A stretch of 21,229 bases of DNA, from NCBI GenBank assembly GCA_002316795.1, contig DCEE01000060.1:1166-22394 (forward strand). Direction: 5' to 3'. The notes under the pieces are model-generated. The model was given only the letters and a program-made list of their open reading frames with translations. It did no database searches and was not told the origin of the DNA. Numbering within the stretch: position 1 is the stretch's first letter; every line of letters starts with the position of its first letter. The DNA comes from Synergistaceae bacterium UBA1037 (GTDB taxonomy: Bacteria; Synergistota; Synergistia; Synergistales; Synergistaceae). Of the stretch, positions 132 to 20,911 are shown one piece after another. The position numbers and the translations under genes are program-made.

Positions 132-240
132 GTCTGATTTCCCTCCATTCGGAGCAAAGTATTAAAAACTAAACAAATGATAATTCTTTTATTATAATGA
201 GAAAAAGAGACGTAGGGAAGGTAAATGTAAACAAATCCTC

Positions 241-294: not shown

Positions 295-394
295 ATCATC
301 CATCTGTACCGGTTACTGTATTTATATTCGAAAACCGGATCGCCAAACCATTATGGCTTGATAACGAACAATCTTGATTTTTTTACACAAAAAA

Positions 395-1411
395 CTATTT
401 CGCTTTCTTCAAGGCATTAAGTGCTTTATCAAGCATTTCCTTTGGGACTTCGTTATACACTTTCGGCCAACATTCTTTTGCAACACGATCACGTATTTTT
501 GAAAGATCCTCATCTTTGTAAACGATCGTTTTTACGCCGGCATCAGCAAGTTTTTTACGATAAATCGCTTCATCTTTAGGTGCCTGTACCCAACGTTTGG
601 CCTCTTCTTCATCGCAAACTTTCAATATTATAGCCTGATCCTTTTTTGATATGCCATTCCAAATTTCTTCATTCATAGACAGGAAAAAACTCTCATAGTG
701 GTCGTTATATGCGAGATAGTATTTCGTCACGTCTCTGAATTGTGAATAAGCACCTTCCGCACTAGCACTTCCCTGTAAACCATCAACAACCCCGGTCTGC
801 ATAGCAGTGAAGAGTTCGCCCCATGCCATTGATGTCGGTATCGCGCCAAGGACATCGCCAAATACATATTCATTAACTTTATTGGCCATGACACGAATTT
901 TAAAACCATTTAAAGCCTTCGAAGGGTCATTTATATTTTTAGGTTCTTTTGCGACGCAGACCCCACCGATCCCCGCTGGCCATGTTGATATTAGCACCAG
1001 TCCCTGCTTCTTAAGACGATCGTTTATCATCTCTCTGACAACACCGTTTTTGCCATAAAGGGTCCTTGCTTCATCCATATTGATTACTAGATATGGGAAC
1101 CATGCGATCCCGAACTGTTTATCTGTCTGCATGGCAAGGGGAGCCATCTGGCAGGCTACGTCTCCAATCGCGATTCTTTCATGAACTACCGAATAGTCCC
1201 CAAGCTGACCAGCCGGAAACACATCAAACGCAACTCTTCCCTGCGTCTCTTTTTCTATTCTTGACGCAATCGTTTTGACATCAATATCAAGAGGTGATCC
1301 GGCAGGGCGGTGATGAGAGAACATCAATCTCGGTGCAGCATCCCCTGCGGCGGCAGAAAACACCATAGCTAGAGTTAACATAATCAATAAGCATAAACTA
1401 AAACGTTTCAT
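395..1411 (-). CDS. dctP: TRAP transporter periplasmic substrate-binding protein, DctP family
   Basis: Extracytoplasmic binding protein of a three-part TRAP carrier; it delivers an organic or amino acid to the DctQM membrane complex encoded just upstream. The start is set at ATG 1411 (338 aa), because GGAAGGAAG lies correctly before it and the protein then begins with a typical signal peptide: MKR, a hydrophobic stretch to about residue 20, then AAAGDA. An in-frame start 21 codons earlier would bury the signal. Family landmarks are FKIRV with Arg173, the conserved residue that binds a substrate carboxylate in DctP proteins, then IPTSMAWGELFTAMQTGVVDG (about 191-211). It is the last gene of cassette A, with its own candidate promoter in the 107-bp gap upstream. 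The ligand cannot be read from sequence; the enzyme neighbours suggest a beta-amino or 3-oxo acid. Confidence 0.93.
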   Translation of the reverse strand: MKRFSLCLLIMLTLAMVFSAAAGDAAPRLMFSHHRPAGSPLDIDVKTIASRIEKETQGRVAFDVFPAGQLGDYSVVHERIAIGDVACQMAPLAMQTDKQFGIAWFPYLVINMDEARTLYGKNGVVREMINDRLKKQGLVLISTWPAGIGGVCVAKEPKNINDPSKALNGFKIRVMANKVNEYVFGDVLGAIPTSMAWGELFTAMQTGVVDGLQGSASAEGAYSQFRDVTKYYLAYNDHYESFFLSMNEEIWNGISKKDQAIILKVCDEEEAKRWVQAPKDEAIYRKKLADAGVKTIVYKDEDLSKIRDRVAKECWPKVYNEVPKEMLDKALNALKKAK

Positions 1412-1444
1412 ATCCACACTTCCTTCCAAATTAATAATATAAAT

Positions 1445-1474
1445 ATGATAAGCGCTCTGAAATATTGCTTCCAA
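1445..1474 (-). promoter_or_regulatory. Candidate internal promoter for dctP
   Basis: On the minus strand TTGGAA (1469-1474) and TATCAT (1445-1450) are separated by 18 bp, a fair sigma-70-type match (4/6 and 5/6). The box lies about 34 bp upstream of the dctP ATG, inside the 107-bp gap after dctM. A separate promoter would allow the binding protein to be made in excess over the membrane subunits. It is a pattern match only. Confidence 0.35.
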
Positions 1475-1518
1475 TAAACGAAAACACCTTCTCCTTTCTT
1501 TTCGGATTTATATGATCC

Positions 1519-2817
1519 CTAATACCCGAGAAGCCTCGGCAATGCCAAAGAGAGGGATGGGACCATTGTTGTAAGGAAAATAACCGGAAGATAAGCGAAA
1601 ACTATTATGGATACAATTGGACCCATGACTTCCGAAAATTCGGCCTTGCCAACCTTCATGCCAAAATACAGTATACTTGCGTATGGTGGAGTGATTCCTC
1701 CCATTGCAAGATTTACTCCCATAATCGAGGCAAAATGGATCGGATCAACACCTATTCTGGTTACAAGAGGCAAAAGCAGAGGAGCACAGATCAACATGCC
1801 CATGGTATCGCTCATGACCATGCCAACGAAGAAGAGGAATATGTTTATGAGCAGTAGCAGCACAAATTTGTTCTTTGTCAGAGCGAACATAATATCTGCG
1901 ACTTGCTGAGGGATCTGGAGCATCGCATATATCTGTCCAAGCATCAGACCCGTAAAAATCATAGCCATGATCGATCCGACCATAACTGCCGACTCATCAA
2001 GCAGTGTATACAATGTTTTCACGTTCATTGCTTTATAAACATACAAGCCTATAGGTACCGTATAAACAGCGGCTACCGCGGCAGCTTCTGTTGCCGTAAA
2101 GACTCCTCCGTAAATGCCCCCAAGAATGATAAAAGGCATTAAGAGCGCAGGTATGGCGTTAAATGTAACAGGAATTTTCTGTTTTCTTTTTTCTAGAATT
2201 TCTGCCCTTGTTTCAACCTTCAAGTCGAATTTGCGGCAATACCAAAGATTGACCAGGCACATCAGGAAACAGATTATCACACCCGGGATCAAAGTGGATA
2301 GGAAACAGGCCAATATCGATGTATCAGTGACCCATCCGTAAATGACCATTATTACGCTTGGTGGTATGAGCAATCCAAGTATAGATGCTGCCGTAACTAA
2401 TGCGGTCGAAAATCCTCTTGGATATCCCTGTTCAACCATGCGCGGTATCAATATCGGGCCTGTAGCTGCCACACCCGTAAAACCACTCCCTGATATCGCG
2501 CCTATTACCGCACAGGTCACACACGCGACCATACCCAATCCGCCGCGGATATGGCCAACCATCAAGTCAACAAGCGCCAGAAGTCTTTTTGCAATCCCGC
2601 TTCCACCCATCAACGTTCCAGCAACGATGAACAATGGACTCGCCAGAAGGACAAAACTGCACATCTGAGGAAGCGCCCATAACATGAGGCTCTTCATACC
2701 AACTGTTGTTGTTGAGGACATATATGCAACAACTGATCCAAAAACGTACGGGATCGGCAAACTTGAGAGCAGTAGTACTATCAGTAACGCAAGGCCTATA
2801 AAGAAGCTAGTCACCAT
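1519..2817 (-). CDS. dctM: TRAP transporter large permease subunit, DctM family
   Basis: Twelve-helix membrane subunit that couples substrate uptake to a sodium gradient in TRAP carriers. Almost the whole 432 aa is hydrophobic. Family motifs are visible: GLLIPPS (148-154), GGVFTATEAAAV (237-248) and GGITPPYAS (373-381); these glycine/proline re-entrant loops form the ion and substrate sites of the DctM fold. The start is placed at ATG 2817 rather than GTG 2829, because the GAGAGG box is 11 nt before the ATG but would overlap the GTG. The start overlaps the end of dctQ by 11 nt, so translation is probably coupled. It is gene six of cassette A. Confidence 0.94.
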   Translation of the reverse strand: MVTSFFIGLALLIVLLLSSLPIPYVFGSVVAYMSSTTTVGMKSLMLWALPQMCSFVLLASPLFIVAGTLMGGSGIAKRLLALVDLMVGHIRGGLGMVACVTCAVIGAISGSGFTGVAATGPILIPRMVEQGYPRGFSTALVTAASILGLLIPPSVIMVIYGWVTDTSILACFLSTLIPGVIICFLMCLVNLWYCRKFDLKVETRAEILEKRKQKIPVTFNAIPALLMPFIILGGIYGGVFTATEAAAVAAVYTVPIGLYVYKAMNVKTLYTLLDESAVMVGSIMAMIFTGLMLGQIYAMLQIPQQVADIMFALTKNKFVLLLLINIFLFFVGMVMSDTMGMLICAPLLLPLVTRIGVDPIHFASIMGVNLAMGGITPPYASILYFGMKVGKAEFSEVMGPIVSIIVFAYLPVIFLTTMVPSLSLALPRLLGY

Positions 2818-3355
2818 TGTTCTTGGCACCTCTCATCGGAATAAAATTAAAATCTTTTTTACCAACAAAAATCAGCAACCAATCAGCAAATTCCACAAAT
2901 GAATATATTGTCATCAGAAGTATGCCAAAAAAGACACTTGATTCCACATAGACAAGCCTTATATACCCAAGCGGACTGTATTTATCTATACGGATCAGGT
3001 ACTGGAAATACCACCAGCTCCATTTGAGAAGCCACAGGCAAACACCAAGAACAACTGCGCTGCGCAGCAATTTTATTATTTTGAAGGTCATTGGGCGTTT
3101 GATATATAACATGATAATGCCGCAGTCTATATGCGCCCTGTGGTAGGAAGCGTACGCAGCCCCTCCCATATAGAGCCATGCCATCGGGAACAGAAGAAAT
3201 TCCTCGATACCCATAAGGGGGGCATTAAATAAATATCTGAGAATAACCTGAACAAACACCAGTAACGTAGTACCAATTAAAAAGAAAACCATCAAAAAAC
3301 CATGAACTTTGCCGAGAGAATCCCAGAATTTTTGAAGTGGATAAGGAATTTTCAT
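2807..3355 (-). CDS. dctQ: TRAP transporter small permease subunit, DctQ family
   Basis: Four-helix membrane subunit that pairs with DctM. The 182 aa show the usual pattern of a short cytoplasmic N-terminus, a first helix around residues 18-40 (FLMVFFLIGTTLLVFVQVIL), the R-Y-x-F-x-A-P-L-x-G-x-E-E stretch that follows the first helix in DctQ proteins, and further helices near 52-68, 90-110 and 135-165. The HRAHIDCG segment (about 73-80) is also typical. The ATG at 3355 follows AGGTGATAAT and is 8 bp after the aminotransferase stop. The 3' end overlaps dctM. Transporter genes of this DctQ-DctM-DctP order are a standard TRAP set. Confidence 0.93.
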   Translation of the reverse strand: MKIPYPLQKFWDSLGKVHGFLMVFFLIGTTLLVFVQVILRYLFNAPLMGIEEFLLFPMAWLYMGGAAYASYHRAHIDCGIIMLYIKRPMTFKIIKLLRSAVVLGVCLWLLKWSWWYFQYLIRIDKYSPLGYIRLVYVESSVFFGILLMTIYSFVEFADWLLIFVGKKDFNFIPMRGAKNNGD

Positions 3356-3363
3356 ATTATCAC

Positions 3364-4698
3364 CTACTTTTTAAGCTGGTAAGCAAAAGACTTTAGGGAT
3401 GACAGAAGATGCCCAAAAAGCTCATCAAGCTGTTGTTCGTTTATTATTAGCGGGGGAGCAACGATAATATTGTCTCCATTAATTCCGTCGACCATACCTG
3501 TACCGGGATAGACAGTAAAACCTTTACTGATACAGTAATCTCTGAATCTTGTTGCTACGTCTTCTTTGCGGGCAAAGGGTTCTTTAGTTTTTTTATCTTT
3601 TACAAATTCAAATCCCCACATCAGCCCCTTGCCTCGGACATCTCCAATAAAGTCACAGTCAGCGACTGACTTTGCATATTTCTCCTCAATAATTGAACCC
3701 ATTTTGTATGAATTACCGCACAAGTCATTTTTCAAATAAAAATCCATTACTGCTGAGACTGCAGCGGATGCGGCAGGCATACCGTTAAATGTATGGCTGT
3801 GAGCAAATACCCCGCTTCCTTTCGCGAATACATCGACAACCTTTTCTGTTGTCAAAGTCGCTCCAACTGGGAAATAACAAGAGGCAAGGCCCTTTGCTGA
3901 GGCGATGATATCCGGCTTAACACCCCAGTGATCAACACAGAAATTCTTGCCTGTCCTGCCAACACCGGTCATAACTTCGTCTGCGATAAGAAGAATATCG
4001 TATTTGTCACAGATATCACGCACTATCTGCCAGTAACCATCCGGAGCAACGACAGCTCCAGCAGTAGATCCTATAACAGGTTCGGCTATGAACGCTGATA
4101 TATATTTGGGTCCGATCCTGTTGATCTTTTCTTCGAGTTTGGTCGCACATTCCAGTCCGCACGCCGGATACTCTTTATTAAAGGGACATCTGTAACAGTA
4201 ATGTGTCTCAATTTTGGGATGGTCAACTATCATCGGCATGAATAGTCTGCGCCTGTTAACATTGCCGCCTATCCCAAGAGTCCCAAGTGTGCTACCGTGA
4301 TAACCGTTCTCTCTGCCGATCACAAGGCATTTCTCAGAGACTCCCTTGTTTTTTTCAAGGTGATACTGATGGGCCATTTTTATTGCGGCTTCGGTCGACT
4401 CGCTTCCTGCGTTTACGAACCATACATGGCTGAAGCCTTCAGGGGCAATACTCAGTATTTTTTGTGCAGCTGTCTCATTTATTTCAGTTTCCCAGATGGA
4501 GCCGTGAGCAAAAGGCGTCTTGCATATCTGTTCGTAAATAGCGGCCGCTACTTCTTTATTTCCATATCCGATGTTAGCAGAAACTGCCCCTGAACAGCCG
4601 TCCAGATATCTGTCTCCCTTTTTGTCATAGAGATAAATGCCTTCTCCATGATCTACGACCAGGAACTCCTTGTTAAAATTTCTTGGAAATACATGCAT
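3364..4698 (-). CDS. PLP-dependent class III aminotransferase (cassette A)
   Basis: Cytoplasmic fold-type I PLP enzyme, 444 aa, full length. Visible landmarks: GSESTEAA (98-105) for the cofactor phosphate, NGYHGS (131-136) with the aromatic residue that stacks on PLP, EPVIGS (206-211), ADEVMTG (239-245) with Asp240 for the pyridine nitrogen, and Lys269 in ASAKGLA, which should form the Schiff base. It lies between CoA-transferase and TRAP genes, 20 bp after the CoA-transferase stop. Class III members act on amino groups that need not be alpha. With a 3-oxoacid CoA-transferase beside it, a 3-amino acid donor is the economical guess. Unusual is a four-cysteine cluster, C168-x2-C171-x8-C180-x3-C184, which is also kept in the second aminotransferase. 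The true amino donor and acceptor are unknown. Confidence 0.93.
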   Translation of the reverse strand: MHVFPRNFNKEFLVVDHGEGIYLYDKKGDRYLDGCSGAVSANIGYGNKEVAAAIYEQICKTPFAHGSIWETEINETAAQKILSIAPEGFSHVWFVNAGSESTEAAIKMAHQYHLEKNKGVSEKCLVIGRENGYHGSTLGTLGIGGNVNRRRLFMPMIVDHPKIETHYCYRCPFNKEYPACGLECATKLEEKINRIGPKYISAFIAEPVIGSTAGAVVAPDGYWQIVRDICDKYDILLIADEVMTGVGRTGKNFCVDHWGVKPDIIASAKGLASCYFPVGATLTTEKVVDVFAKGSGVFAHSHTFNGMPAASAAVSAVMDFYLKNDLCGNSYKMGSIIEEKYAKSVADCDFIGDVRGKGLMWGFEFVKDKKTKEPFARKEDVATRFRDYCISKGFTVYPGTGMVDGINGDNIIVAPPLIINEQQLDELFGHLLSSLKSFAYQLKK

Positions 4699-4718
4699 TT
4701 AGGTTACCCCCCTTTTAA

Positions 4719-5396
4719 CTAAAACTTTTTCATATCATCAGAGACGATATATTCTGCCGGCGTTATCTCCCTAAGATCGTTAAGTGTCATATTTGGGCAG
4801 ATCTCTTCAAGGTACATATTTTTGTTTCTGAACCTGAACACAGCGTATTCAGTAACTATCGCGTGGATCTTTTCATAGCCCGTTATCGGGAGTGTGCATT
4901 TTTTTAAAATTTTTGGTTTTCCTTTCTTGCTAAGGTGCTGCATTGCGATATACACTCGTCTGGCGCCTGCGACGAGATCCATCGCACCTCCCACCCCGAG
5001 CATTTTGCCTCCGGGTATTATCCAGTTGGCCACGTTGCCTTCCTGGTCGGCTTCAAATGCGCCAATTACCGTAGCGTCAACGTGTCCGCCCCTTATCATC
5101 CCAAAAGACATGCAACTGTCAAAATAGCTGCAGCCCGGCGTCTCAGTTACCTTGATACGTCCGGCGTTGATCAGCAAAGGATCGCATTCGCCTTCGCACG
5201 CAGCCGGCCCTACGCCCAGCATCCCATTTTCCGCCTGAAGAAAGACCCTTTTACTGTCGATATGATCCGCGACCATCGTCGGTATCCCCACACCCAGATT
5301 GACAAAAAGGTCTTTCTCTTTGCTCATCTCTGAGAATTCTTTGGCGATCCTGCCTGCTATCCTGGCTTTCGCCGTTTCTTCGTCGTATTGATACAT
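4719..5396 (-). CDS. 3-oxoacid CoA-transferase subunit B (AtoA-like), cassette A
   Basis: Beta subunit of a family I CoA-transferase. It carries the catalytic glutamate in QAENG (Glu56 of 225), to which CoA becomes thioester-linked during transfer from a donor acyl-CoA to the 3-oxo acid. NLGVGIPTMVADHI (33-46) and the GGAMDLVAGA segment are typical. ATG 5396 is preferred because AAGGGG is 9 nt upstream; a TTG at 5405 in the same frame would touch that box. It starts 2 nt after the TGA of subunit A, a usual tight coupling for subunits made in equal amount. Its product, a 3-oxoacyl-CoA, is the substrate for the thiolase made from the first gene of the operon. Confidence 0.93.
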   Translation of the reverse strand: MYQYDEETAKARIAGRIAKEFSEMSKEKDLFVNLGVGIPTMVADHIDSKRVFLQAENGMLGVGPAACEGECDPLLINAGRIKVTETPGCSYFDSCMSFGMIRGGHVDATVIGAFEADQEGNVANWIIPGGKMLGVGGAMDLVAGARRVYIAMQHLSKKGKPKILKKCTLPITGYEKIHAIVTEYAVFRFRNKNMYLEEICPNMTLNDLREITPAEYIVSDDMKKF

Positions 5397-5398
5397 TT

Positions 5399-6070
5399 TC
5401 AGCAACCCCTTTTAACTATCACATCAACAAATATGTGAGGCGTCACGATCGACTCCGGATCAAGTGACCCAATAGGAACTATTTCTGCTACCTCGGCGAT
5501 AACGAGTTTTCCTGCCATAGCCATAAGTGGATTAAAGTTGCGGGCTGTTTTGTAATAAACCAAATTACCCAGCTCATCTGCTTTGTATGCTGAAATCAGT
5601 GCCACATCGGCAGGTATGGCATTTTGAAGCAAGTAAGTCTCCCCGTTGAACTCTCTTATCTCCCTGTCACCTTGAAGATCCGTTCCAACGGCCGTTTTGG
5701 TATAAAACCCTGCTATTCCGACTCCGGCAGCACGTATCCCCTCTGCGAAAGATCCCTGCGGAATGAGGTCGACAGTTATTTTCCCCGCGTTGAACGCGTC
5801 TGCCACATCGGGGTTCCAGTTATAATAATTCCCGATAAGCCCCTTTATCTTTCCGGCAGTCAGCAATGAACCCAGTCCTTCGTTCGGTGAACCAAGGTCA
5901 TTGCTTATTATCGTGAGATCTTTAGCATTAACTTTAGTCAACGCTTCAACAAGCATCTTGGGGTCCCCGGAATTACCGAAACCACTAACCATCACCCTGT
6001 CGCCGTCTTTTATCATTCTCATCGCTTCTTCGATCGGCTTGAGCTTTCTGCTTTTAGAAACCTGATCCAT
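5399..6070 (-). CDS. 3-oxoacid CoA-transferase subunit A (AtoD-like), cassette A
   Basis: Alpha subunit partner of the B subunit; together they form the usual heteromeric family I transferase. At 223 aa it is normal length. The CoA-binding glycine loop is GFGNSGDPKML (30-40), the family's GFGxxGxP, and the segment PQGSFAEGIRAAGVGIAGFYT is characteristic of acetate/acetoacetate-type transferases. The open frame extends 39 codons upstream into the thiolase gene, but ATG 6070 is chosen: AAAGGAAAG precedes it, it follows the thiolase stop by 19 bp, and the family N-terminus begins here. Family membership is clear; whether the acceptor is acetoacetate or a longer or branched 3-oxo acid is not. Confidence 0.93.
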   Translation of the reverse strand: MDQVSKSRKLKPIEEAMRMIKDGDRVMVSGFGNSGDPKMLVEALTKVNAKDLTIISNDLGSPNEGLGSLLTAGKIKGLIGNYYNWNPDVADAFNAGKITVDLIPQGSFAEGIRAAGVGIAGFYTKTAVGTDLQGDREIREFNGETYLLQNAIPADVALISAYKADELGNLVYYKTARNFNPLMAMAGKLVIAEVAEIVPIGSLDPESIVTPHIFVDVIVKRGC

Positions 6071-6089
6071 AGTCAAACACTTTCCTTTA

Positions 6090-7289
6090 CTAGATTTTTT
6101 CAAAAGCCAAAGACATTCCAAGACCGCCGGCGATACATATGGTGCCCAGGCCATAACGTACGTCTCGCTTTTGCATTTCATGCACAAGAGTCACGGATAT
6201 CCTGGCGCCAGAGCATCCAAGAGGGTGTCCCAAAGAGATCGCACCGCCGTTCACATTTAAAATATCCTGATCAAGATCCATTTCTTTGATGCAACCGAGA
6301 GATTGGGCGGCAAATGCCTCATTAAGCTCAATAAGCCCGAAATCCTCAAGCTTGATGTGTTCTTTTTCAAGTATTTTCAACAGCTTGTTTGTCGCCGCGA
6401 CAGGACCAAGTCCCATGTAGCGGGGATCCACTCCGGCCGCAGCGCCTGCGATGATCTTCGCTAACGGCTTAGTCCCCAGTTGTTTAGCTTTAGCTGATGA
6501 CATGAGGACGAGCGCAGCTGCGCCGTCATTGCGTCCTGAAGCATTCCCGGCGGTAGTTACGCCTCTGTCGAATACAGGTTTAAGTTTTGACATCTTTTCC
6601 ATGTTTGTATCCCTTTTGGGGAACTCATCTGTGTCTACGACAAGGGCAGTGCCTTTTCTCTGAGGAACCTCTACAGGAATGATCTCATCTTTAAAACGTC
6701 CACTGTCTATCGCGGCTATAGCTTTATGTTGGCTGCTTAAGGCAAAAACATCGCATTCCTCACGGGTGATACCTAATTTTTCAGCTATGTTATCCGCGGT
6801 CTGTATCATATTAAAAGTCCCATATATGTCTCTTGGCTGGCTTCTCGGCTGACTTTCCGTATTCGGGTCTATAAAGTCGGTACTGCCGTTCCCTACACCG
6901 AATCTTGCGTTTCTGACATAAAACGGCGCCGTGCTCATGCTTTCAACTCCACCAACAACAACTATGTCGGAATAGCCTGTCTGGATCTGCTGCATCCCTG
7001 AAAGCATCGCCTGCATTCCTGACGCGCATTGCCGATGTACCGTATACGCCGGCGTCGATTCAGGCAGTCTGACCATCAGGGAAACGACTCGGGCAATATT
7101 TGGCTGGTCTGTTGACTGTTTCGCCTGTCCGACAATAACTTCATCGATCATTTCCTTAGAAATATTGGCTTTTTGTATTGCTGATTCAAGTACGCTTGAA
7201 AGCAACGTTTCCGGTTGAATGTTTTTAAAAACACCACCAATGTTTCCGAGAGGTGTTCTGACAGCAGAAACGATCAAAACGTCTTCCAA
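6090..7289 (-). CDS. Acetyl-CoA acyltransferase / thiolase, cassette A
   Basis: Thiolase-family enzyme of 399 aa with all catalytic residues: nucleophile Cys88 in HRQCASG, His355 in LGHPLG, Cys385 in CIAGG, and the NEAFAAQ loop (323-329). In a degradative setting it cleaves a 3-oxoacyl-CoA with CoA to acetyl-CoA and an acyl-CoA two carbons shorter. It is the promoter-proximal gene of the operon facing lysR. The start is a TTG at 7287-7289, supported by GGAGGT 8-9 nt upstream and by the family N-terminus (EDVLIVSAVRTPLG); a TTG start may temper translation. Chain-length preference cannot be read from sequence; it differs enough from the second thiolase that the two may serve different acyl chains. 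Confidence 0.94.
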   Translation of the reverse strand: MEDVLIVSAVRTPLGNIGGVFKNIQPETLLSSVLESAIQKANISKEMIDEVIVGQAKQSTDQPNIARVVSLMVRLPESTPAYTVHRQCASGMQAMLSGMQQIQTGYSDIVVVGGVESMSTAPFYVRNARFGVGNGSTDFIDPNTESQPRSQPRDIYGTFNMIQTADNIAEKLGITREECDVFALSSQHKAIAAIDSGRFKDEIIPVEVPQRKGTALVVDTDEFPKRDTNMEKMSKLKPVFDRGVTTAGNASGRNDGAAALVLMSSAKAKQLGTKPLAKIIAGAAAGVDPRYMGLGPVAATNKLLKILEKEHIKLEDFGLIELNEAFAAQSLGCIKEMDLDQDILNVNGGAISLGHPLGCSGARISVTLVHEMQKRDVRYGLGTICIAGGLGMSLAFEKI

Positions 7290-7385
7290 GTTCTTCTACC
7301 TCCAAACAAAATTTCCATATTTTTATTCTCGCTTCGGTTCAGGATATCCATTGGATTGAATGGTAAATTCAAAATTTTGATATGT

Positions 7386-7414
7386 ATATTACCAAAACAG
7401 CTATTGTGTCTTAA
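7386..7414 (-). promoter_or_regulatory. Candidate promoter of cassette A
   Basis: On the minus strand TTAAGA (7409-7414) and TAATAT (7386-7391) are exactly 17 bp apart, each 4/6 to consensus. The -35 box is one half of the 20-bp palindrome. A weak promoter whose -35 overlaps an operator is the standard arrangement for a LysR-activated operon. The start of transcription would fall near 7379, about 90 bp before the thiolase TTG. Confidence 0.5.
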
Positions 7415-7428
7415 CTCTAGAGTTAAGA
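7409..7428. promoter_or_regulatory. Perfect 20-bp palindrome, probable LysR-family operator
   Basis: TCTTAACTCTAGAGTTAAGA is identical on both strands. It lies between the two divergent promoters, overlapping the cassette A -35 and ending 4 bp before the lysR -35, so one bound regulator could act on both. Its half-site spacing differs by one base from the common T-N11-A rule of LysR-type sites. A second perfect palindrome, TCAAAATTTTGA (7369-7380), which with its preceding T fits T-N11-A, lies where the cassette A transcript should begin and could be an accessory site. Confidence 0.6.
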
Positions 7429-7432
7429 TGTT

Positions 7433-7461
7433 TTGATAAATTACTTCAGTTAGTGTATTAT
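7433..7461 (+). promoter_or_regulatory. Promoter of the LysR gene
   Basis: TTGATA (7433-7438) and TATTAT (7456-7461) are 17 bp apart, a good sigma-70-type promoter, with the ATG 30 bp further on. The closeness of the 20-bp palindrome suggests autoregulation. Confidence 0.6.
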
Positions 7462-7491
7462 TAAGAAATCGATCAGAGAGGAGGCGAATTT

Positions 7492-8376: not shown

Positions 8377-8404
8377 GATCATAATAATAATTTTTTATAA
8401 AAAC

Positions 8405-8449
8405 AAAGCAAACAATACCCTCGTAATAAACTGGGGTATTGTTTGCTTT
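8405..8449. terminator. Bidirectional intrinsic terminator between lysR and cassette B
   Basis: A perfect 16-bp stem pairs 8405-8420 (AAAGCAAACAATACCC) with 8434-8449 around a 13-nt loop. On the plus strand TTTTAATTTGTTT follows; on the minus strand a T-rich run (TTTGTTTTTATAAAAAA) follows. It lies 28 bp after the lysR stop and 25 bp after the cassette B thiolase stop, so it closes both convergent units. Confidence 0.9.
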
Positions 8450-8474
8450 TAATTTGTTTAAGAAATGTTTGCCC

Positions 8475-9659
8475 TTACACCAGCTTCACTATCATGGCGA
8501 CGCCCTGACCTCCGCCTATGCAGGCACTGGCCATCCCAACGCTCTTTCCCTGCTGTCTCAGGGCGTAGAGGAGAGTCGTCAGTATCTTGGCCCCGCTTGC
8601 CCCTATCGGGTGACCCAGCGCTATAGCCCCGCCATGGACATTGAGGCGATCCATGTCAAAGGGCATCTTCCTGTGACATGCTATCACCTGGGCGGCAAAC
8701 GCCTCGTTTATCTCGATCAGTTCCATGTCGTCCATTGTCATTCCGGCCTTTTTGAGCGCAATGTCCATCGCCTTGACCGGAGCTATCGGGAAGTGCTCGG
8801 CATCGACCGCCGCAGCAGAATAACTCAGGATCTCCGCGATGGGTTTCAGCCCCTCCGCCTTCGCCCATTCATCACCGGCGACCATCACGGCACTTCCGGC
8901 GTCGCAGAGCGCTGAACTGGACCCGGCCGTTATCGTTCCGTCCTTTTTAAAGATCACGGGCAGTTTTGACAGCGACTCTATCGAAGTATCCTTCCTTGGT
9001 ATCTCGTCCGTGTCAAGGACGATCTCACCCTTTTTCCTGTCCTTTATGACCACCGGCACTATCTCTTCCTTAAAAAGCCCTTTTTCGATCGCGTCTACGG
9101 CCTTCATGTGGCTGTAGTATGCGAATTCATCCTGTTCCTGACGTGAGATCGAGAACTCAGGGATAACGACGTCCTCCGTTATCTCTCCCATCAGCCGCCC
9201 CGCCAGGGGACAGATGAAGCCGTCGGCGTGAAGGACATCTTCGGACTTTTTCTCACCCATCCTGAAACCCCATCTGGCTTCCCTCAGGATATACGGGGTA
9301 TTGGTGGCGCTTTCCATCCCTCCAGCCAGGATAGTGCTGGCATCACCGAGCCTGATCCTGTCAGCCGCCAGCATTACGGTGCGAAGTCCCGAACCGCACC
9401 TGATGTTTACTGTAAACGCCGGTACCGACTGGTCTATTCCGGCTTTGAACATAGCGTTCCTTGCGGGGTTTGCCCCGACTCCGGCCTGCCATCCGTTGCC
9501 CATTATAACCTCCTCAACGGCGTCGGCTGAGGCCCCGGAACGCGTTAGGGCTTCTTTCAGCGCTGCCGCCCCGAGGTCTGTAGCTGAAAGTTTGGAGAAC
9601 TGCCCTCCGAATTTTCCTCCCGCTGTCCTGCTTGCGCTAAGTATTACCGCTTTAGGCAC
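8475..9659 (-). CDS. Acetyl-CoA acetyltransferase-type thiolase, cassette B
   Basis: Thiolase of 394 aa with complete active site: Cys88 in IRCGSG, His350 in LGHPIG, Cys380 in CIGGG, and NEAFAAQ. The ARWGFRMG segment (128-135) and overall sequence resemble biosynthetic/acetoacetyl-CoA thiolases. In this operon the likely direction is cleavage of the CoA-transferase product to acetyl-CoA units. The start is GTG 9659, with GGAGGTGGC upstream; it overlaps the end of the CoA-transferase B gene by 8 nt. It is the last gene of cassette B, ending just before the terminator at 8405-8449, whereas the thiolase of cassette A is the first gene of its operon. Confidence 0.94.
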   Translation of the reverse strand: MPKAVILSASRTAGGKFGGQFSKLSATDLGAAALKEALTRSGASADAVEEVIMGNGWQAGVGANPARNAMFKAGIDQSVPAFTVNIRCGSGLRTVMLAADRIRLGDASTILAGGMESATNTPYILREARWGFRMGEKKSEDVLHADGFICPLAGRLMGEITEDVVIPEFSISRQEQDEFAYYSHMKAVDAIEKGLFKEEIVPVVIKDRKKGEIVLDTDEIPRKDTSIESLSKLPVIFKKDGTITAGSSSALCDAGSAVMVAGDEWAKAEGLKPIAEILSYSAAAVDAEHFPIAPVKAMDIALKKAGMTMDDMELIEINEAFAAQVIACHRKMPFDMDRLNVHGGAIALGHPIGASGAKILTTLLYALRQQGKSVGMASACIGGGQGVAMIVKLV

Positions 9660-10341
9660 TTTCTGCCACCTCCATTCCCTTTATTGGAAGGAGCGGGTCC
9701 GCAACATCAAACTCGGCTTCGGTATGCTCCCTGATCTGTTCCAGCGTAACTTCCGGGGACATCTCTATCAGGGTCATTTTGCCGTCTTTTATAGTGAAGA
9801 CTGCGAACTCGGTGACCACCATGCTTGCGACTCCGACAGCCGTCAGCGGCAGGCTGCACTTTTTCAGTATCTTGGCCCCGCCCTTTTTGGTCGTGTGAGT
9901 AGTAGCGATGTAGACCCTCTTCGCACCCACCACAAGGTCCATGGCTCCGCCCATTCCGGGAACGCTCTTTCCGGGCACGACCCAGTTGGCGATGTCTCCC
10001 GTCTGGCTCACTTCAAGCGTGCCGAGCACAGTTGCATCGACGTGCCCGCCCCTTATAAGGCCGAAACTCGTGTCACTGGCGAAAAAACTACCTCCCGGAA
10101 GCATCGAAATGATCCGCCCTCCGGCTCCTATGCATCTGAGGTCAGGTTCAGCAGGGGCCGGTCCTATGCCAATGGCTCCGTTCTCCGCCTGGAAGATTAT
10201 GCGGACTCCCTCGGGAATATAATCGGAGACAAGCGTGGGTATTCCTATCCCAAGGTTCACTACCTGCCCTTCTGAGAATTCCAGCGCTATCCTTTTGGCT
10301 ATCCTTTCCTTTATGATGCATTCATCAAGTTCTGGAAGCAT
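9652..10341 (-). CDS. 3-oxoacid CoA-transferase subunit B (AtoA-like), cassette B
   Basis: Family I CoA-transferase beta subunit of 229 aa with the catalytic glutamate Glu53 in QAENG and the NLGIGIPTLVSDYI stretch. It matches the cassette A subunit block by block (RIAKRIALEFSE, QAENGxxGxGP, RGGHVDATVLG, GGAMDLVVGA), so the two are homologues of the same type. ATG 10341 has GGGAGG upstream and overlaps the end of subunit A by 17 nt. It transfers CoA from an acyl-CoA to the 3-oxo acid without spending ATP; the donor is probably acetyl-CoA or the acyl-CoA made by the thiolase. Confidence 0.93.
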   Translation of the reverse strand: MLPELDECIIKERIAKRIALEFSEGQVVNLGIGIPTLVSDYIPEGVRIIFQAENGAIGIGPAPAEPDLRCIGAGGRIISMLPGGSFFASDTSFGLIRGGHVDATVLGTLEVSQTGDIANWVVPGKSVPGMGGAMDLVVGAKRVYIATTHTTKKGGAKILKKCSLPLTAVGVASMVVTEFAVFTIKDGKMTLIEMSPEVTLEQIREHTEAEFDVADPLLPIKGMEVAESA

Positions 10342-11017
10342 AGTATGAACCTCCCTTCACAACTATCATGTCAACAAGGATGCCCTGTGTCACGATCACG
10401 TTCGGATCCAGCTCACCGACATCGACTACCGAGTCGACCTCTGCGATCACGATCTCCGCGGCAGTGGCCATGGCAGGGTTGAAGTTCTGGTTGGTCCCCT
10501 TGTAAATGAGGTTGCCCATCCTGTCGGCCTTATAAGCCCTGACCAGCGCGACATCAGCCCTGAGCGGCAGCTCGAGGATATACTTCCTTCCGTTTACTTC
10601 CAGGACCTGCTTGCCCTCTTCGACTATGGTCCCTACCCCTGTCGGCGTAAGGAATCCGCCAAGTCCGAAGCCACCGGCCCTGATGCGCTCAACAAAGGTT
10701 CCCTGCGGAGAAAGCTCAAGCTCCATCTTTCCTGAGTTGTAGTACTCACCCGTCTTTTTGTTCAGCCCTACGTGCGAGGCTATGACCTTTTTGATCCTTC
10801 CCGCCGCTACCAGCTTCCCGTGGCCTACGTTTTCATAGGCCGTGTCGTTGGCGATCATCGTCAGTTCGTCTGTTCCCGCTTCATACAGGGCGTCAACAAG
10901 CGTGTAAGGTATACCGCCGTAGTTGAACCCTCCGACCATGATGGTGTCGCCCTTTTTGACGCATTGCACCGCTTCATGTGCAGAGACGACCGGTTTGATA
11001 ATTTTCTTGGTCATCAT
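10325..11017 (-). CDS. 3-oxoacid CoA-transferase subunit A (AtoD-like), cassette B
   Basis: Alpha subunit of 230 aa (or 229 if the second of two adjacent ATG codons is used). The glycine loop is GGFNYGGIPYTL (29-40) and the family segment PQGTFVERIRAGGFGLGGFLTPTGVGT is complete. ATG 11017 overlaps the TGA of the TRAP permease gene as ATGA; GGAGGG lies 5 nt before the first ATG and 8 nt before the second, so either may be used. Compared with cassette A the glycine loop reads GGFNYGG rather than SGFGNSG, a difference near the CoA site that may reflect a different partner or acid. Its place right after a permease gene shows uptake and activation are co-expressed. Confidence 0.93.
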   Translation of the reverse strand: MMTKKIIKPVVSAHEAVQCVKKGDTIMVGGFNYGGIPYTLVDALYEAGTDELTMIANDTAYENVGHGKLVAAGRIKKVIASHVGLNKKTGEYYNSGKMELELSPQGTFVERIRAGGFGLGGFLTPTGVGTIVEEGKQVLEVNGRKYILELPLRADVALVRAYKADRMGNLIYKGTNQNFNPAMATAAEIVIAEVDSVVDVGELDPNVIVTQGILVDMIVVKGGSYYASRT

Positions 11018-12984
11018 ACGGTCCCTCCTTCAAGTGTATTTTTTTTCTTTCCGAAGCCCTTCTGTTTGGCAAATATGGCCACGACTATCGCCGCTCCTAT
11101 GAGATTGGTGAGCATGGTCGGATAAACTATAAGGAAAGGTACAGCAAGTAACAGCAGCCTTTCTATTATGTTGATGTCATCAGCAAAATATCCCTGCACT
11201 GCAGCTGAGAGCCCAATTACTGCGATGAGTGCTGTCACGCTTGCAAAAACTATCTCAAAGACGCTTCCCTGCAGCAGAAGACCCGGATTGTAAATAAACA
11301 TATAAGGCACAATAAATCCTGCAGCTGCCACCAGAAGAGCTGTAAAGCCAGTCTTCAGCGGTTCGGATTTGGCTATGCCCGCAGATGCGTATGTAGCCAG
11401 GGCAACGGGAGGAGTGACGTCCGCAAGGACACCGAAGTAGAGGCAGAAAAGGTGGGCCGAGAACATCGGAACTCCCATCTGAGCCAGAGCAGGCGCCGCC
11501 AGTGTTGAAGTTATGATATACTGCGCGGTCGTCGGTACTCCCATCCCGAGGATTATCGAACCGATCATCGTGAGGAAGAGGGCAAGCGGGAGTATTCCCT
11601 GAGACATGCTCAGGACAAAGGATGAGAACGCAAGCCCCAGTCCGGTGATCGCGATAACGCCGATCACTATGCCCGAGCAGGCGCATGCAGCTGCCACATC
11701 TACGGCACCCGTGCCGCCCGATATCATAGCGTCGATGATCCTCCTCGGGGTCATCCTGTGTTCCTTGTCCCCCATCCACGATGCAGCCACAAGCGAAACG
11801 ATCGACCAGAAGACCGCCATTGTCGGAGAGTAGCCAAAAGCAAGGAATACAACAAGCAAAACTATCGGAAGGAGAAGGTGCCATCCCTGGCGAAGTACCT
11901 TCCTGACGTTTGGAAGCTGTTCATCAGTAAGCCTTGGCATGCGCTTCTTCCCGGCTCTGAAGTGGACCATTGCCCCTATCGAAATGAAGTAGAGAGTTGC
12001 CGGGATCGCCGCGCCGACTACGATCTCCCAGTAAGAGATGCCGAGGAACTGCGCCATTATGAAGGCTGCCGCTCCCATGACAGGAGGCATGACCTGTCCT
12101 CCCGTGGAGGCGGCTGCGACTATGGCTCCCGCAAATTCAGGAGAATAACCCGAATGCTTCATCAGCGGGATGGTAAACGCTCCGGTAGTGACCGCGTTTC
12201 CGCACGAACTTCCCGAGACCATGCCCATGAAGCCGCTGGCCGTTACCGCAGCCTTTCCCGGTCCGCCCTGGCTCTTACCCGCAAGTCCTACGGCAAGGTC
12301 GATAAAGAACTGGCCGGCCCCCGAGGTGCTGAGGAATGAACCGAAGAGGACGAAGAGGAAGATGAACGAAGCCGAGACTCCGAGAGGTACTCCGAATATC
12401 CCGTCCGTGCGCAGGTACATGAATGGGGCAAGCTCTTCAAAAGAGAAGCCCGCATGTGCCAGGATGCCGGGCATATAAGGCCCGAATACTCCGTAAGCAA
12501 GGGCAAGCGTCGCGACTATCGGAAGCGGCCATCCCAGGGATCTTCGCGCGCCCTCTATCACCAGCACTATCATTATTACGCCGAGGTAGATGTCAGACGG
12601 GATCGCCGAGCCCTCGCGGGCTGCTATCGCGTCGTAGTTAAGGAGTATGTTCGCGCATCCGACGATAATAAGTATCGCGGGTATCCAGTCAAAGATGCTT
12701 ATCTTCAGCTTATTTCCTTTTTTCTGTGACGCGGGGTATATAAGGAAGAGAAGCGCACCCATGAACATCCAGTGCCACGCCCTCTGTGTCATTGCCGCAA
12801 AAAGCCCGAATGCCGCTGTGTAGAGGTGGAAGCAGGAAGCTGTTATTGCTATGCCTGCCACAAGGTAAAACTGCCAGCCGGATAGTCTCCGCTTTTTACT
12901 TTCATCAGGATCTTCAACTATCTCCGGAACGATGTCCAGCTTTTCGATATCATCTGCTTTACGCAGACCCTGATCACATTCCAT
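11014..12984 (-). CDS. Fused TRAP transporter permease (4TM + 12TM, DctQM fusion, TAXI type)
   Basis: Single 656-aa membrane protein combining small and large TRAP subunits, as is usual in TAXI-TRAP systems. After a charged N-terminal tail of about 35 residues come helices through the rest of the chain. Visible large-subunit motifs are VSGSSCGNAVTTG (about 256-268), GGQVMPP (about 295-301) and GMGVPTTAQY (about 480-489), and later DVTPPVALATYASAG. The start is ATG 12984, which has GGGAGGT 8 nt before it; an upstream in-frame start at 13053 would add 23 residues that overlap an intergenic hairpin. It works with the TAXI binding protein encoded upstream, probably sodium-coupled. It is unrelated in architecture to the three-gene DctPQM carrier of cassette A. 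Confidence 0.94.
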   Translation of the reverse strand: MECDQGLRKADDIEKLDIVPEIVEDPDESKKRRLSGWQFYLVAGIAITASCFHLYTAAFGLFAAMTQRAWHWMFMGALLFLIYPASQKKGNKLKISIFDWIPAILIIVGCANILLNYDAIAAREGSAIPSDIYLGVIMIVLVIEGARRSLGWPLPIVATLALAYGVFGPYMPGILAHAGFSFEELAPFMYLRTDGIFGVPLGVSASFIFLFVLFGSFLSTSGAGQFFIDLAVGLAGKSQGGPGKAAVTASGFMGMVSGSSCGNAVTTGAFTIPLMKHSGYSPEFAGAIVAAASTGGQVMPPVMGAAAFIMAQFLGISYWEIVVGAAIPATLYFISIGAMVHFRAGKKRMPRLTDEQLPNVRKVLRQGWHLLLPIVLLVVFLAFGYSPTMAVFWSIVSLVAASWMGDKEHRMTPRRIIDAMISGGTGAVDVAAACACSGIVIGVIAITGLGLAFSSFVLSMSQGILPLALFLTMIGSIILGMGVPTTAQYIITSTLAAPALAQMGVPMFSAHLFCLYFGVLADVTPPVALATYASAGIAKSEPLKTGFTALLVAAAGFIVPYMFIYNPGLLLQGSVFEIVFASVTALIAVIGLSAAVQGYFADDINIIERLLLLAVPFLIVYPTMLTNLIGAAIVVAIFAKQKGFGKKKNTLEGGTV

Positions 12985-13018
12985 ATTACAGACCTCCCAT
13001 AATGTCAGGCTTCTAACA

Positions 13019-13046
13019 TCAACGGGGAGCAAATGCCCCCCGTTGA
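13019..13046 (-). other. Intercistronic hairpin after the TAXI binding-protein gene
   Basis: TCAACGGGG (13019-13027) pairs perfectly with CCCCGTTGA (13038-13046) around a 10-nt loop, 24 nt after the stop of the binding-protein gene and upstream of the permease. No T run follows, so it is more likely an mRNA 3'-end protector or partial terminator than a full stop. Such stems commonly let binding protein exceed permease. Confidence 0.6.
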
Positions 13047-13070
13047 GATCCAACTATGTGTCGGGGCAAC

Positions 13071-14024
13071 CTACTTAACTGTTATTCCCTGTTCCTTGAA
13101 ATACTTGGCAGCTCCCGGGTGGAATGGGATGATCCCCACTGATGCCTTCTGGGGGACAAAGTTGGCCGCGTGCGGAGTGACTTTCATAAGTTCGTCTTTT
13201 TTGTCAATGAAAGTCTTAAGGCAGTCGTATGCTACCTTTTCTGTCATTTTGCCGTTTACTACGAGGAAGTTGGCGTCAGCCACAGTCTTGCAGGGCTGAT
13301 CCTGTTTTGCGTAGGTCCCCTTCTCGATCGTGTACTTCAGAAGGAACTGGTTCTTCTTGGTGACCTTGTCGATAACGTCGTCCGGAAGCGGTATCAAAAC
13401 CACGTCACGTACGGCCGCTATCTCCATGATCGCCGAGCCGGGCGCCGCGAAGTTGAAGAAAGCGGCATCGATGTTGCCGTCCTTGAGCGCAGTTACCGCT
13501 TCGGGCTGTGTCAGCTGCTGCTTGTTGATGTCCTTGTCGGGATCCCATCCGGCTGCCTCGAGTATCATCAGGGAGAGAAGCTGGTCTCCGCCGCCGGGAG
13601 CCCCCAGGGATATCTTCTTGCCCTTAAGGTCAGCAAAGGTCTTGATGCCTGTCTTGGTCGTAGTCACAAGGTGCTGCGGGGCGGCATACATGTTCATGAG
13701 GGTCAGGAGCGGGAGTTTTCCGTCCTGCTGAAAAGCCTCGGTCCCTGTGTAAGCCTGATAGAGGGTCGATCCCATCGTCATCCCTATCTGTGCCTTGTTT
13801 GAGGCAACAAGACGGCAGTTTTCCTTTGAAGCCGCAGTCGAGCGGGATGTAGCCTTGATGTCCAGTCCGCCCTTCGTCAGAAGTTCAGCCATTACTCCGC
13901 CGAGCGGGTAATATGTTCCCCCGACTCCGCCTGAACCGATGGTGATAAACGTCGTAGCGGAGGCGATACCTGCAAAAAGCATAACTGCGATGATACCAAG
14001 CGCGATAATGTTCCTCTTCTTCAT
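13071..14024 (-). CDS. TAXI-family TRAP solute receptor
   Basis: Extracytoplasmic binding protein of 317 aa in the TAXI class, which has a fold like, but a sequence unlike, DctP. A signal peptide is clear: MKKR, a hydrophobic core, then AGIASA near residue 23. The family signature ITIGSGGVGGTYYPLGG lies at 27-43, followed by the SxxSxxN-type segment of these proteins. The start is ATG 14024; the other ATG (14033) has AAGGAGGT directly against it, leaving no room, while 14024 sits about 10 nt behind the box. Hairpins lie on both sides of this gene. TAXI ligands described so far include glutamate and other dicarboxylates; here a beta-amino acid or 3-oxo acid is inferred only from neighbours. 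Confidence 0.94.
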   Translation of the reverse strand: MKKRNIIALGIIAVMLFAGIASATTFITIGSGGVGGTYYPLGGVMAELLTKGGLDIKATSRSTAASKENCRLVASNKAQIGMTMGSTLYQAYTGTEAFQQDGKLPLLTLMNMYAAPQHLVTTTKTGIKTFADLKGKKISLGAPGGGDQLLSLMILEAAGWDPDKDINKQQLTQPEAVTALKDGNIDAAFFNFAAPGSAIMEIAAVRDVVLIPLPDDVIDKVTKKNQFLLKYTIEKGTYAKQDQPCKTVADANFLVVNGKMTEKVAYDCLKTFIDKKDELMKVTPHAANFVPQKASVGIIPFHPGAAKYFKEQGITVK

Positions 14025-14073
14025 AAAAAACATACCTCCTTAAATGATGTATTATTTCGCGTTGCTATGGATA

Positions 14074-14091
14074 CCTGCCGTAAACGGCAGG
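14074..14091 (-). other. Intercistronic hairpin between aminotransferase and TAXI genes
   Basis: CCTGCCG (14074-14080) pairs with CGGCAGG (14085-14091) around a TAAA loop, 10 nt after the aminotransferase stop. No T run follows on the minus strand. It could slow decay or partly end transcription between the enzyme and the transporter genes. Confidence 0.55.
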
Positions 14092-14101
14092 GCAAAAAAC
14101 T

Positions 14102-15436
14102 TTACAGCAGTTTCTTTGCCGCCGCATCCAGTCCGGCAGCCAGTTTTTCCAGCAGCTCGTTCACCTGTTCCTCGTTGATGATAAGAGGAGGCGCGACAAG
14201 GAAATTGTCTCCCAGAAGTCCGTCCACCTGACCAGAACCCGGATAAATGATCAGGCCCCTGTCCACGCACTCCTTCGTAGCGACATTTGCTGCCCCTGTT
14301 TTTTCAAAGGGTTGCCTGGTAGATTTGTCCTTCACCAGTTCAAATCCCCACATAAGCCCTTTGCCTCTGACATCGCCCACGATCGGGTTTTCTGCTGCGA
14401 TCTTTCTCACTCCTGCTCCAAGTATCTCCCCCATCTTTGCAGCGTTTTCGACCAGACTGTGCTCCTTCATGTACTTAAAAACTGCGCATACAGCGGCAGC
14501 GCTTATCGGATTTCCGTTATAGGTGTGGCCATGCATGAATGTGCCGCTGCCGTTTTTGATCTCTTCAACAATACTGCTTCTTGCGATGATCCCGCCTGTC
14601 GGCACATATCCCGCGGCAAGCCCCTTGGCAGTAGCGATGATATCAGGCACTACATTCCAGTGATCGACCGCGAAGTTTTTCCCTGTCCGCCCGCATCCGG
14701 TCATTACTTCATCAGCGATCAGGATAACGTCATATCTGCTGCAGATCTCCCTTATCATCGGCCAGTATTCATCAGGCGGCGTTATCGCACCGACTGTTGA
14801 CCCGACAAGAGGCTCTGCGATGAAGGACGAAACATACTGGGGACCTATTATTTTTATCATTTTTTCAAGATGTTTTGCACACATCACACCGCATGAGGGA
14901 TATTCAGCTCCAAACTCACAGCGGTAACAATAAGAGGCAGCAATTTTGGGTGATTCCCTGAAGAGCGGTGAAAATACTCTTCGGCGAGCCATGGATCCGG
15001 CTATCGCCATAGTGCCGATGGTGCTCCCGTGGTAAGAATTCCAACGTCCGATCGTCAGATGTTTGCTCGTGGCAGGTCCGTCTCTTTCGACAAAGTACTG
15101 CCTGGCAAGCTTAACAGCTGATTCTATCGCTTCGCTTCCGCCGCTGACGAACCAGACCTGGTCCAGGTCACCCGGCGCTGTTTCTGCAACAGCAGATGCT
15201 GCTTCTTCCACTATCCGGCATTTCCAGCGTGAGGGGTGCGCGAATTCGATCTTCTCATACTGAGCCTTGACTGCATCAATGACGTCTTTGTTGCAGTGCC
15301 CGAGGTTTGAGATCAGGGCACCGCAGCAGCCGTCAAGATATTTTTTGCCCTCGGTATCATATATATAGATACCCTCTCCATGGTCCGCTTCAATGTAGTT
15401 TGCTTTGAAACTTCGGGGAAATGAGTGCTGTAACAT
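14102..15436 (-). CDS. PLP-dependent class III aminotransferase (cassette B)
   Basis: Homologue of the cassette A aminotransferase and the same length (444 aa). Landmarks: GGSEAIESA (99-107), NSYHGS (133-138), EPLVGS (208-213), ADEVMTG with Asp242, and Lys271 in ATAKGLA as the PLP lysine. It shares the same four-cysteine cluster, C170-x2-C173-x8-C182-x3-C186. It is the first gene of cassette B, opposite the RpiR-type regulator, with GGGAGGT before ATG 15436. It should remove the amino group from the imported substrate; the next enzymes, a 3-oxoacid CoA-transferase and thiolase, imply that the product is a 3-oxo acid and hence the substrate a 3-amino acid. An alpha- or omega-amino acid is possible if the enzymes do not act in series. 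Confidence 0.93.
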   Translation of the reverse strand: MLQHSFPRSFKANYIEADHGEGIYIYDTEGKKYLDGCCGALISNLGHCNKDVIDAVKAQYEKIEFAHPSRWKCRIVEEAASAVAETAPGDLDQVWFVSGGSEAIESAVKLARQYFVERDGPATSKHLTIGRWNSYHGSTIGTMAIAGSMARRRVFSPLFRESPKIAASYCYRCEFGAEYPSCGVMCAKHLEKMIKIIGPQYVSSFIAEPLVGSTVGAITPPDEYWPMIREICSRYDVILIADEVMTGCGRTGKNFAVDHWNVVPDIIATAKGLAAGYVPTGGIIARSSIVEEIKNGSGTFMHGHTYNGNPISAAAVCAVFKYMKEHSLVENAAKMGEILGAGVRKIAAENPIVGDVRGKGLMWGFELVKDKSTRQPFEKTGAANVATKECVDRGLIIYPGSGQVDGLLGDNFLVAPPLIINEEQVNELLEKLAAGLDAAAKKLL

Positions 15437-16648: not shown

Positions 16649-16664
16649 CCTCGGAGCAAAGTCT

Positions 16665-20876: not shown

Positions 20877-20911
20877 TTGTTGCTTCCTCCTAACCTTTCC
20901 TGTCAGAACAT

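Follow-up and report, generated by a model that had tools for sequence, protein, structure and literature searches.

Which compounds would a bacterium take up and degrade with two neighbouring gene cassettes that each pair a transporter with the same set of enzymes? This question is raised by a 21,229-nucleotide stretch of contig DCEE01000060.1 from Synergistaceae bacterium UBA1037 (hereafter the window), whose genome (G000) is a 1.75-Mb draft in 64 contigs, 90% complete, with Synergistaceae metagenome-assembled genomes such as UBA6101 as its closest named relatives. The Synergistota are amino-acid-degrading anaerobes of guts and digesters. A sequence-only reading of the window had described two cassettes, A at 395-7289 and B at 8475-15436, and the spans of the open reading frames match these positions exactly. 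We propose, with a probability of about 0.58, that each cassette serves to take up and degrade 3-amino (beta-amino) acids. In the proposed route, a tripartite ATP-independent periplasmic (TRAP) carrier would import the 3-amino acid, and a class III aminotransferase (AT) would pass the 3-amino group to a keto acid, yielding a free 3-oxo acid. A CoA-transferase would immediately convert this unstable product to its CoA ester, using another acyl-CoA and no ATP, and a thiolase would cleave the ester to acetyl-CoA and a shorter acyl-CoA able to feed acetate kinase. The genome also encodes an acetate kinase and a member of the glutamate dehydrogenase family, which could close the route. The earlier description of the modules as ATP-free would hold for the activation step and does not extend to the route as a whole.

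Enzymes and carriers of the two cassettes

Comparison with Pfam and NCBIfam models bore out that each cassette contains one class III AT, both CoA-transferase subunits, one thiolase and one TRAP carrier, and revealed no further family-supported gene inside either, other frames of the open-reading-frame list lying outside this test. The CoA-transferases are of the 3-oxoacid type: scores against TIGR02428 (cut-off 243.55) were 264.7 bits in cassette A and 284.5 in cassette B, and those against TIGR02429 (cut-off 128.5) were 240 and 230.8. The thiolases matched TIGR01930 (acetyl-CoA C-acyltransferase) with 449.6 and 432.5 bits (cut-off 240.55), and the ATs matched PF00202 with 294.3 (AT_A) and 297.2 bits (AT_B). 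Against NF005685 (cut-off 485), AT_B scored above the threshold with 488.5 bits and AT_A below it with 465.5; neither reached the YodT group model NF005375 (454 and 489.6 bits, cut-off 535). The ATs have Lys269/Lys271, which we take to be the pyridoxal phosphate lysine, CoA-transferase subunit B has an ENG sequence, presumably its active-site motif, and the thiolases have Cys88, GHP and C-x-GG, presumably the catalytic cysteine, histidine and cysteine. Both ATs also carry a C-x2-C-x8-C-x3-C motif (YCYRC...C...C), seen as well in several of the relatives read, that could bind a metal.

The carriers belong to different types. The solute receptor of cassette A exceeded the cut-offs of PF03480 (160.4 bits) and NF037995 (122.9), identifying a DctP-type TRAP system (DctPQM), and remained below that of TIGR00787 (111.1, cut-off 175.05). 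The arginine of its KIR motif, presumably the binding-site arginine of DctP-type receptors, aligns with that of solved chains. Cassette B instead encodes a TAXI receptor and a fused permease (TIGR02122, 280.4 bits; TIGR02123, 713.7 bits; both above cut-off). Gene order differs too. Cassette A runs, from 7289 down to 395, as thiolase, CoA-transferase A, CoA-transferase B, AT, DctQ, DctM and DctP; cassette B runs, from 15436 down to 8475, as AT, TAXI receptor, fused permease, CoA-transferase A, CoA-transferase B and thiolase. Both are tightly packed on the minus strand, and the final four genes of cassette B overlap by 4-17 bases. A LysR-type gene diverges from cassette A and an RpiR/SIS gene from cassette B, so the two are likely separately regulated operons.

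Between the cassettes, amino acid identity is 51% for the AT, 51% for CoA-transferase B, 46% for CoA-transferase A and 36% for the thiolase. Gene order, carrier types, the low thiolase identity and different best thiolase models rule out an origin of the pair by tandem duplication. Among 80 AT sequences placed in a tree, built without duplicates (L097-L100) and without frames shorter than 400 or longer than 600 amino acids (L051, L103), the A-type ATs (5 rows, support 100/99) are nested in a 61-row clade (100/99) that also includes 54 B-type ATs and is confined to Synergistota; several long branches join outside it. Within the phylum, therefore, the ATs look like ancient paralogues. Because the two thiolases match different best models, the thiolase gene may have had a separate origin. 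The idea that the cassettes serve two different substrates is suggested by the receptor types and this old divergence.

Conservation of cassette B and the pocket of its receptor

We collected loci from one even sample of 149 Synergistota genomes, using an AT match at E <= 1e-110, which 57 of them have. B-type ATs (at least 50% identity) were found at 54 loci in 53 genomes, or in 54 of the 149 genomes with G000 included, spanning 11 family labels. For 44 of these loci at least 5.5 kb of downstream sequence was available; the other 10 were set aside, and genes were counted within 6.5 kb of the AT, which is the anchor of the search and whose own constancy carries no weight. Loci L107-L111 lie outside this analysis. 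CoA-transferase subunits A and B were each present in 43 of the 44 loci, the thiolase in 41, the TAXI receptor and the permease in 39 each and the RpiR gene in 36. The complete enzyme set recurred in 41 loci, and in 38 it was accompanied by TAXI receptor and permease at 55% identity or more. Two loci (L046, L058) have the enzymes and no TRAP carrier, and one (L078) has two ATs with DctPQM. On this gene-neighbourhood evidence, cassette B appears to be an old, widespread Synergistota module under an RpiR regulator. The gene set is thus frequent in the phylum, and parts of it resemble the ato and yod operons discussed below; the claim that no operon of this exact content has been described is otherwise uncontradicted, since we found no such description in the open-access literature, which omits most subscription journals.

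The TAXI receptor has 8s4j as its best solved relative. We take this entry for VcGluP, since its sequence agrees with the residues cited in the VcGluP paper at 13 of 13 positions checked. In VcGluP, the alpha-amino group of glutamate is bound by Y45, Q93, E125 and the backbone of M201, and the alpha-carboxyl group by S75, with Y45 and Q93 the most important (PMC11574862). Of the cassette-B receptors with at least 55% identity, 43 counting that of the window, all keep the carboxylate-binding S75 and 42 keep Y45, the remaining one having a gap there. By contrast, the amine-binding Q93 and E125 are lost: Q93 is replaced by methionine in 42 receptors and by threonine in one, and E125 by alanine in all 43. 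M201 is asparagine in all 43, and Y200 is tryptophan in 36 and phenylalanine in 7. The window receptor, with methionine and alanine at positions 93 and 125, thus departs from the VcGluP-type glutamate-binding pocket. A Desulfobacterales receptor adjoining an AT (L103) has the same methionine, alanine and asparagine. The cassette-B pocket looks like one conserved non-glutamate site, and a pocket without an alpha-amino clamp fits a 3-amino acid, which has the carboxylate and lacks the alpha-amino group.

Substrate class and competing explanations

The product expected from the ATs is illuminated by their plasmid-borne relatives, which are 42-46% identical among the matches listed. Of 158 plasmid records with such a relative, 40 were listed, 16 fetched for variety and 14 annotated. 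A BKACE-family (Kce, DUF849) gene adjoins the AT in 7 of these 14 (H1, H5, H7, H9, H10, H14, H17), a fraction from hand-picked neighbourhoods with an incomplete gene table and no random estimate; two CoA-transferase genes adjoin it in one (H33). The enzyme on which the BKACE family was founded uses acetyl-CoA and a beta-keto acid as its substrates (PMC4922564). BKACE also directly follows the AT in a Syntrophaceae locus (L104), and Paracoccus H17 repeats the RpiR-TAXI-permease-AT skeleton with BKACE replacing CoA-transferase and thiolase. In these loci, as in our proposal, the AT would hand a beta-keto acid to the next enzyme; the difference is that BKACE stands in place of CoA-transferase and thiolase, and a genome search found no BKACE gene in G000.

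Other AT neighbourhoods were also recorded. On a Shinella plasmid (L116, 7923-11763), AT, BKACE, GNAT acetyltransferase and histone-deacetylase-family genes lie in a row that suggests a pathway for an N-acetylated beta-amino acid. On a plasmid of the archaeon Natronorubrum (L119, 3839-9326), an M20 deacylase, a creatininase-family gene, two CoA-transferase genes and the AT form a row. A 69% identical AT in L063 (3635-10709) and a 44% identical AT in L076 (9371-13339), both with neither CoA-transferase nor thiolase, each occur with an IlvD/Edd-type dehydratase and a 3-hydroxyisobutyrate-dehydrogenase-like gene, which may reflect another use of the same AT family.

Thiolases require 3-oxoacyl-CoA. 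Strong thiolase hits number two each in G000 and in G051, the second genome of the genus with cassette A enzymes, and all are cassette genes; G018 and G025 have the single cassette B one. The 3-hydroxyacyl-CoA dehydrogenase model PF02737 (cut-off 22) gave one partial hit above threshold per genome in four genus genomes, the best at 24.4 bits, and each of the four has one ECH_1 gene. With the strong thiolase hits confined to the cassettes and only partial PF02737 matches, a fatty-acid cycle is an unlikely supplier of 3-oxoacyl-CoA, and fatty-acid beta-oxidation is disfavoured. An internal source of beta-amino acids, lysine 2,3-aminomutase (kamA), was ruled out for G000, within its 90% completeness, and for five other genus genomes of the sample: TIGR03820 had no hit in any of them, and it hit 36 of the 149 phylum genomes. 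Given the BKACE pairing and the restriction of strong thiolase hits to the cassettes, the predicted conversion of a 3-amino acid through a 3-oxo acid to a 3-oxoacyl-CoA, and on to two acyl-CoAs, fits best. Immediate CoA transfer would make sense because free beta-keto acids readily lose their carboxyl group as CO2, which has been reported in the breakdown of beta-phenylalanine (PMC6150868).

Several known systems share parts of this arrangement. Beta-phenylalanine transaminases convert a beta-amino acid to a beta-keto acid, as proposed here for the ATs (PMC6150868, PMC9850050), but there the keto acid decarboxylates, and the excerpt of PMC6150868 reports no CoA step. The Kat route of lysine fermentation in Cloacimonas also proceeds by beta-transamination, acetoacetate CoA transfer by AtoA/AtoD and thiolysis to acetyl-CoA (PMC3149608). 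As described, Kat is set apart by being HemL-like and acting on CoA esters, with a substrate made intracellularly from lysine rather than imported. Two operons resemble the cassettes in gene content. The yodT-yodS-yodR (kamA) operon of Bacillus subtilis groups a class III AT and two CoA-transferase subunits with kamA, an acetyltransferase and a deacylase. Its AT belongs to the same NCBIfam neighbourhood and also adjoins both subunits, and 3I4J is the best solved structure for the cassette ATs as well as for YodT, which is itself uncharacterised (PMC6522883). The cassettes differ in lacking kamA, acetyltransferase and deacylase and in adding a TRAP carrier and thiolase. In Escherichia coli, the atoDAEB operon unites a CoA-transferase pair, a thiolase and the carrier AtoE. 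The cassettes share this grouping but add an AT and an RpiR or LysR regulator, with TRAP in place of AtoE.

A number of observations weigh against beta-amino acid degradation. The best solved relatives of the ATs are putrescine and omega transaminases. Loci L084 and L095 lack both thiolase and TRAP carrier, and L063 has neither CoA-transferase nor thiolase. Six of the 14 plasmid relatives (H6, H8, H15, H19, H31, H40) have neither BKACE nor CoA-transferase beside them, H6 and H8 having a TAXI carrier, and some members of the BKACE family lack its characteristic activity (PMC4922564). The TAXI pocket fits a non-amino acid equally well. In L060 the enzymes stand beside a receptor that retains Q and E, and a glutamate-like TAXI pocket also occurs at the Paracoccus BKACE locus; speculatively, such a pocket perhaps serves a glutamate-like 3-amino acid. 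Finally, we found no assigned substrate for the operon in the open-access literature.

The strongest competitor, which we consider improbable, is that the cassettes are Ato-like modules. Their carrier would take up acetoacetate or another 3-oxo or short-chain acid that has no amino group, CoA-transferase and thiolase would degrade it in the manner of the E. coli ato operon, and the AT would perform a side reaction. The loss of amine-binding residues from the TAXI pocket fits this, and CoA-transferase A of cassette B approaches the acetate CoA-transferase alpha model NF007394 (276.9 bits, cut-off 315) without reaching it; that of cassette A scores 196.4. Pairing of the AT with BKACE elsewhere speaks against it, as does the need of saturated acids for further steps, for which we saw one ECH_1 gene per genome but no good 3-hydroxyacyl-CoA dehydrogenase. 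Because the cassette B CoA-transferase is AtoD-like, 3-aminobutyrate, degraded via acetoacetate to two acetyl-CoA, would be the simplest candidate under our own proposal, doubtful as any single choice for cassette B is.

Less probable still is that the AT substrates are diamines or amino acids of the alpha or omega type, the linked CoA-transferase and thiolase belonging to a route that does not pass from 3-amino to 3-oxo acids. The solved relatives noted above favour this, as do aldehyde-oxidising enzymes at A-type loci elsewhere (L051, L136, L074), but the window's own cassettes encode no aldehyde enzyme, and relatives of the AT are paired with BKACE. Semialdehydes are not known to serve as substrates for either 3-oxoacid CoA-transferase or thiolase. 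A reversed order on the same substrates, in which the CoA-transferase first makes a 3-aminoacyl-CoA on which the AT then acts, has a precedent in Kat, reported as exclusive to CoA esters (PMC3149608), but is very unlikely, because BKACE partners use free beta-keto acids and at least those ATs should yield free acids.

If beta-amino acid breakdown is correct, the cassettes would provide an energy route whose activation needs no ATP, a TAXI receptor family would gain a substrate class, and beta-amino acids from other microbes would have a fate. Examples are the osmolyte beta-glutamate and N-epsilon-acetyl-beta-lysine, a methanogen solute (PMC12776343).

Cassette A as a variable island

A-type ATs are rarer, occurring in 6 of the 149 genomes (G000, G021, G051, G059, G068, G114); among eight genomes of the genus, six have the B-type and two the A-type. 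The LysR gene and cassette A form an 8.3-kb island with a guanine-plus-cytosine (GC) content of 43.3%, compared with 53.8% to its right. A genome of the same species (G018, ~99% complete) keeps the window's left 146 bases (98.6% identity) and positions 8474-21229 (99.8%), with a short-chain dehydrogenase gene in place of the island. In G025, the flanks of the site are 323 bases apart. We found no direct repeats of 10-20 bases between the stretches at both borders and therefore propose no insertion mechanism.

In G051, LysR and the A enzymes lie at the same place, the LysR protein being 76% identical, and the A part has a GC content of 37.2% versus 50.0% for its B part. At the DNA level the A enzymes match the window at 75% identity and the B stretch at 79%, so a recent transfer of the island from that species can be discounted. 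Ancestral gain followed by losses and exchange at one site both fit. A palindrome between LysR and thiolase, a candidate LysR operator, has an 18-nucleotide core of which 17 nucleotides are matched in the corresponding gap of G051.

The transporter of the A-type loci varies. In G051, a sodium:solute symporter, called by likeness to those of L074 and L081 (Pfam-tested), and a molybdenum hydroxylase replace DctPQM after the AT. L081 has the A enzymes with a symporter and a TAXI carrier, L051 has them with a symporter-like gene and an aldehyde ferredoxin oxidoreductase (AFOR), and L074 combines a symporter and a 42% identical AT with CoA-transferases and a thiolase of the A type. Of the two components, the enzyme block is the constant one and the carrier varies. 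Cassette A is an accessory, low-GC relative with an exchangeable carrier; it would be controlled by LysR and probably serves another substrate.

Aldehyde-oxidising enzymes occur at four A-type loci (L051, 5613-7454; L079, 2483-4348; L136, 2545-5373; L074, 4993-7854) and are either tungsten enzymes (AFOR, identified by Pfam in L051 and by clustering in L079) or molybdenum enzymes. The window's cassette A has none, and the enzyme found elsewhere is a clue to the A substrate.

A broader proposal, which we advance tentatively and hold to be somewhat less probable than not, is that Synergistota share a widespread route in which imported beta-amino acids are transaminated, given CoA and thiolysed. 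It would be fed by a TAXI class without the alpha-amino clamp and with an invariant asparagine; its plug-in enzyme block would accept TAXI, DctPQM or sodium symporter, and its island form would come and go within species. Through such a route, beta-amino acids, methanogen osmolytes among them, would become part of anaerobic food webs.

Coordinates of the features are collected in Table 1. The raw open-reading-frame list over-extends the starts of some cassette A genes (CoA-transferase A, DctP), for which probable starts are given.

Table 1. Positions of cassette genes, regulators and associated features in the window.
Feature	Position	Strand	Basis or remark
Cassette A DctP solute receptor	395..1474 (probable start 1411)	-	PF03480, NF037995 above cut-off
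Cassette A DctM large permease	1519..2829	-	PF06808, TIGR00786 above cut-off
Cassette A DctQ small permease	2807..3355	-	PF04290 above cut-off
Cassette A class III aminotransferase (AT_A)	3364..4698	-	PF00202; best NCBIfam NF005685
Cassette A CoA-transferase subunit B	4719..5405	-	TIGR02428 above cut-off
Cassette A CoA-transferase subunit A	5399..6187 (probable start 6070)	-	TIGR02429 above cut-off
Cassette A thiolase	6090..7289	-	TIGR01930 above cut-off
Perfect 20-nt palindrome, candidate LysR operator	7409..7428		between LysR and A thiolase
LysR-type regulator, divergent to cassette A	7492..8376	+	PF00126, PF03466; island member
Variable island (LysR and cassette A)	147..8473		absent from G018, G025
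Cassette B thiolase	8475..9659	-	TIGR01930 above cut-off
Cassette B CoA-transferase subunit B	9652..10341	-	TIGR02428 above cut-off
Cassette B CoA-transferase subunit A	10325..11017	-	TIGR02429 above cut-off
Cassette B fused DctQM TRAP permease	11014..13053	-	TIGR02123 above cut-off
Cassette B TAXI solute receptor	13071..14033	-	TIGR02122 above cut-off; pocket residues
Cassette B class III aminotransferase (AT_B)	14102..15436	-	PF00202; NF005685 above cut-off
RpiR/SIS regulator, divergent to cassette B	15776..16630	+	PF01418, PF01380

Scans of the window for tRNA genes and Rfam families gave no matches. Promoter (11 found, 8.4 expected) and terminator-like sites (16 found, 9.4 expected) carry low information. 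Beyond the RpiR/SIS gene, positions 16665-20876 encode a 1403-amino-acid protein with BadF-type activase and DUF2229 domains, resembling activases of 2-hydroxyacyl-CoA dehydratases, that is found in this neighbourhood only within genomes of the same genus.

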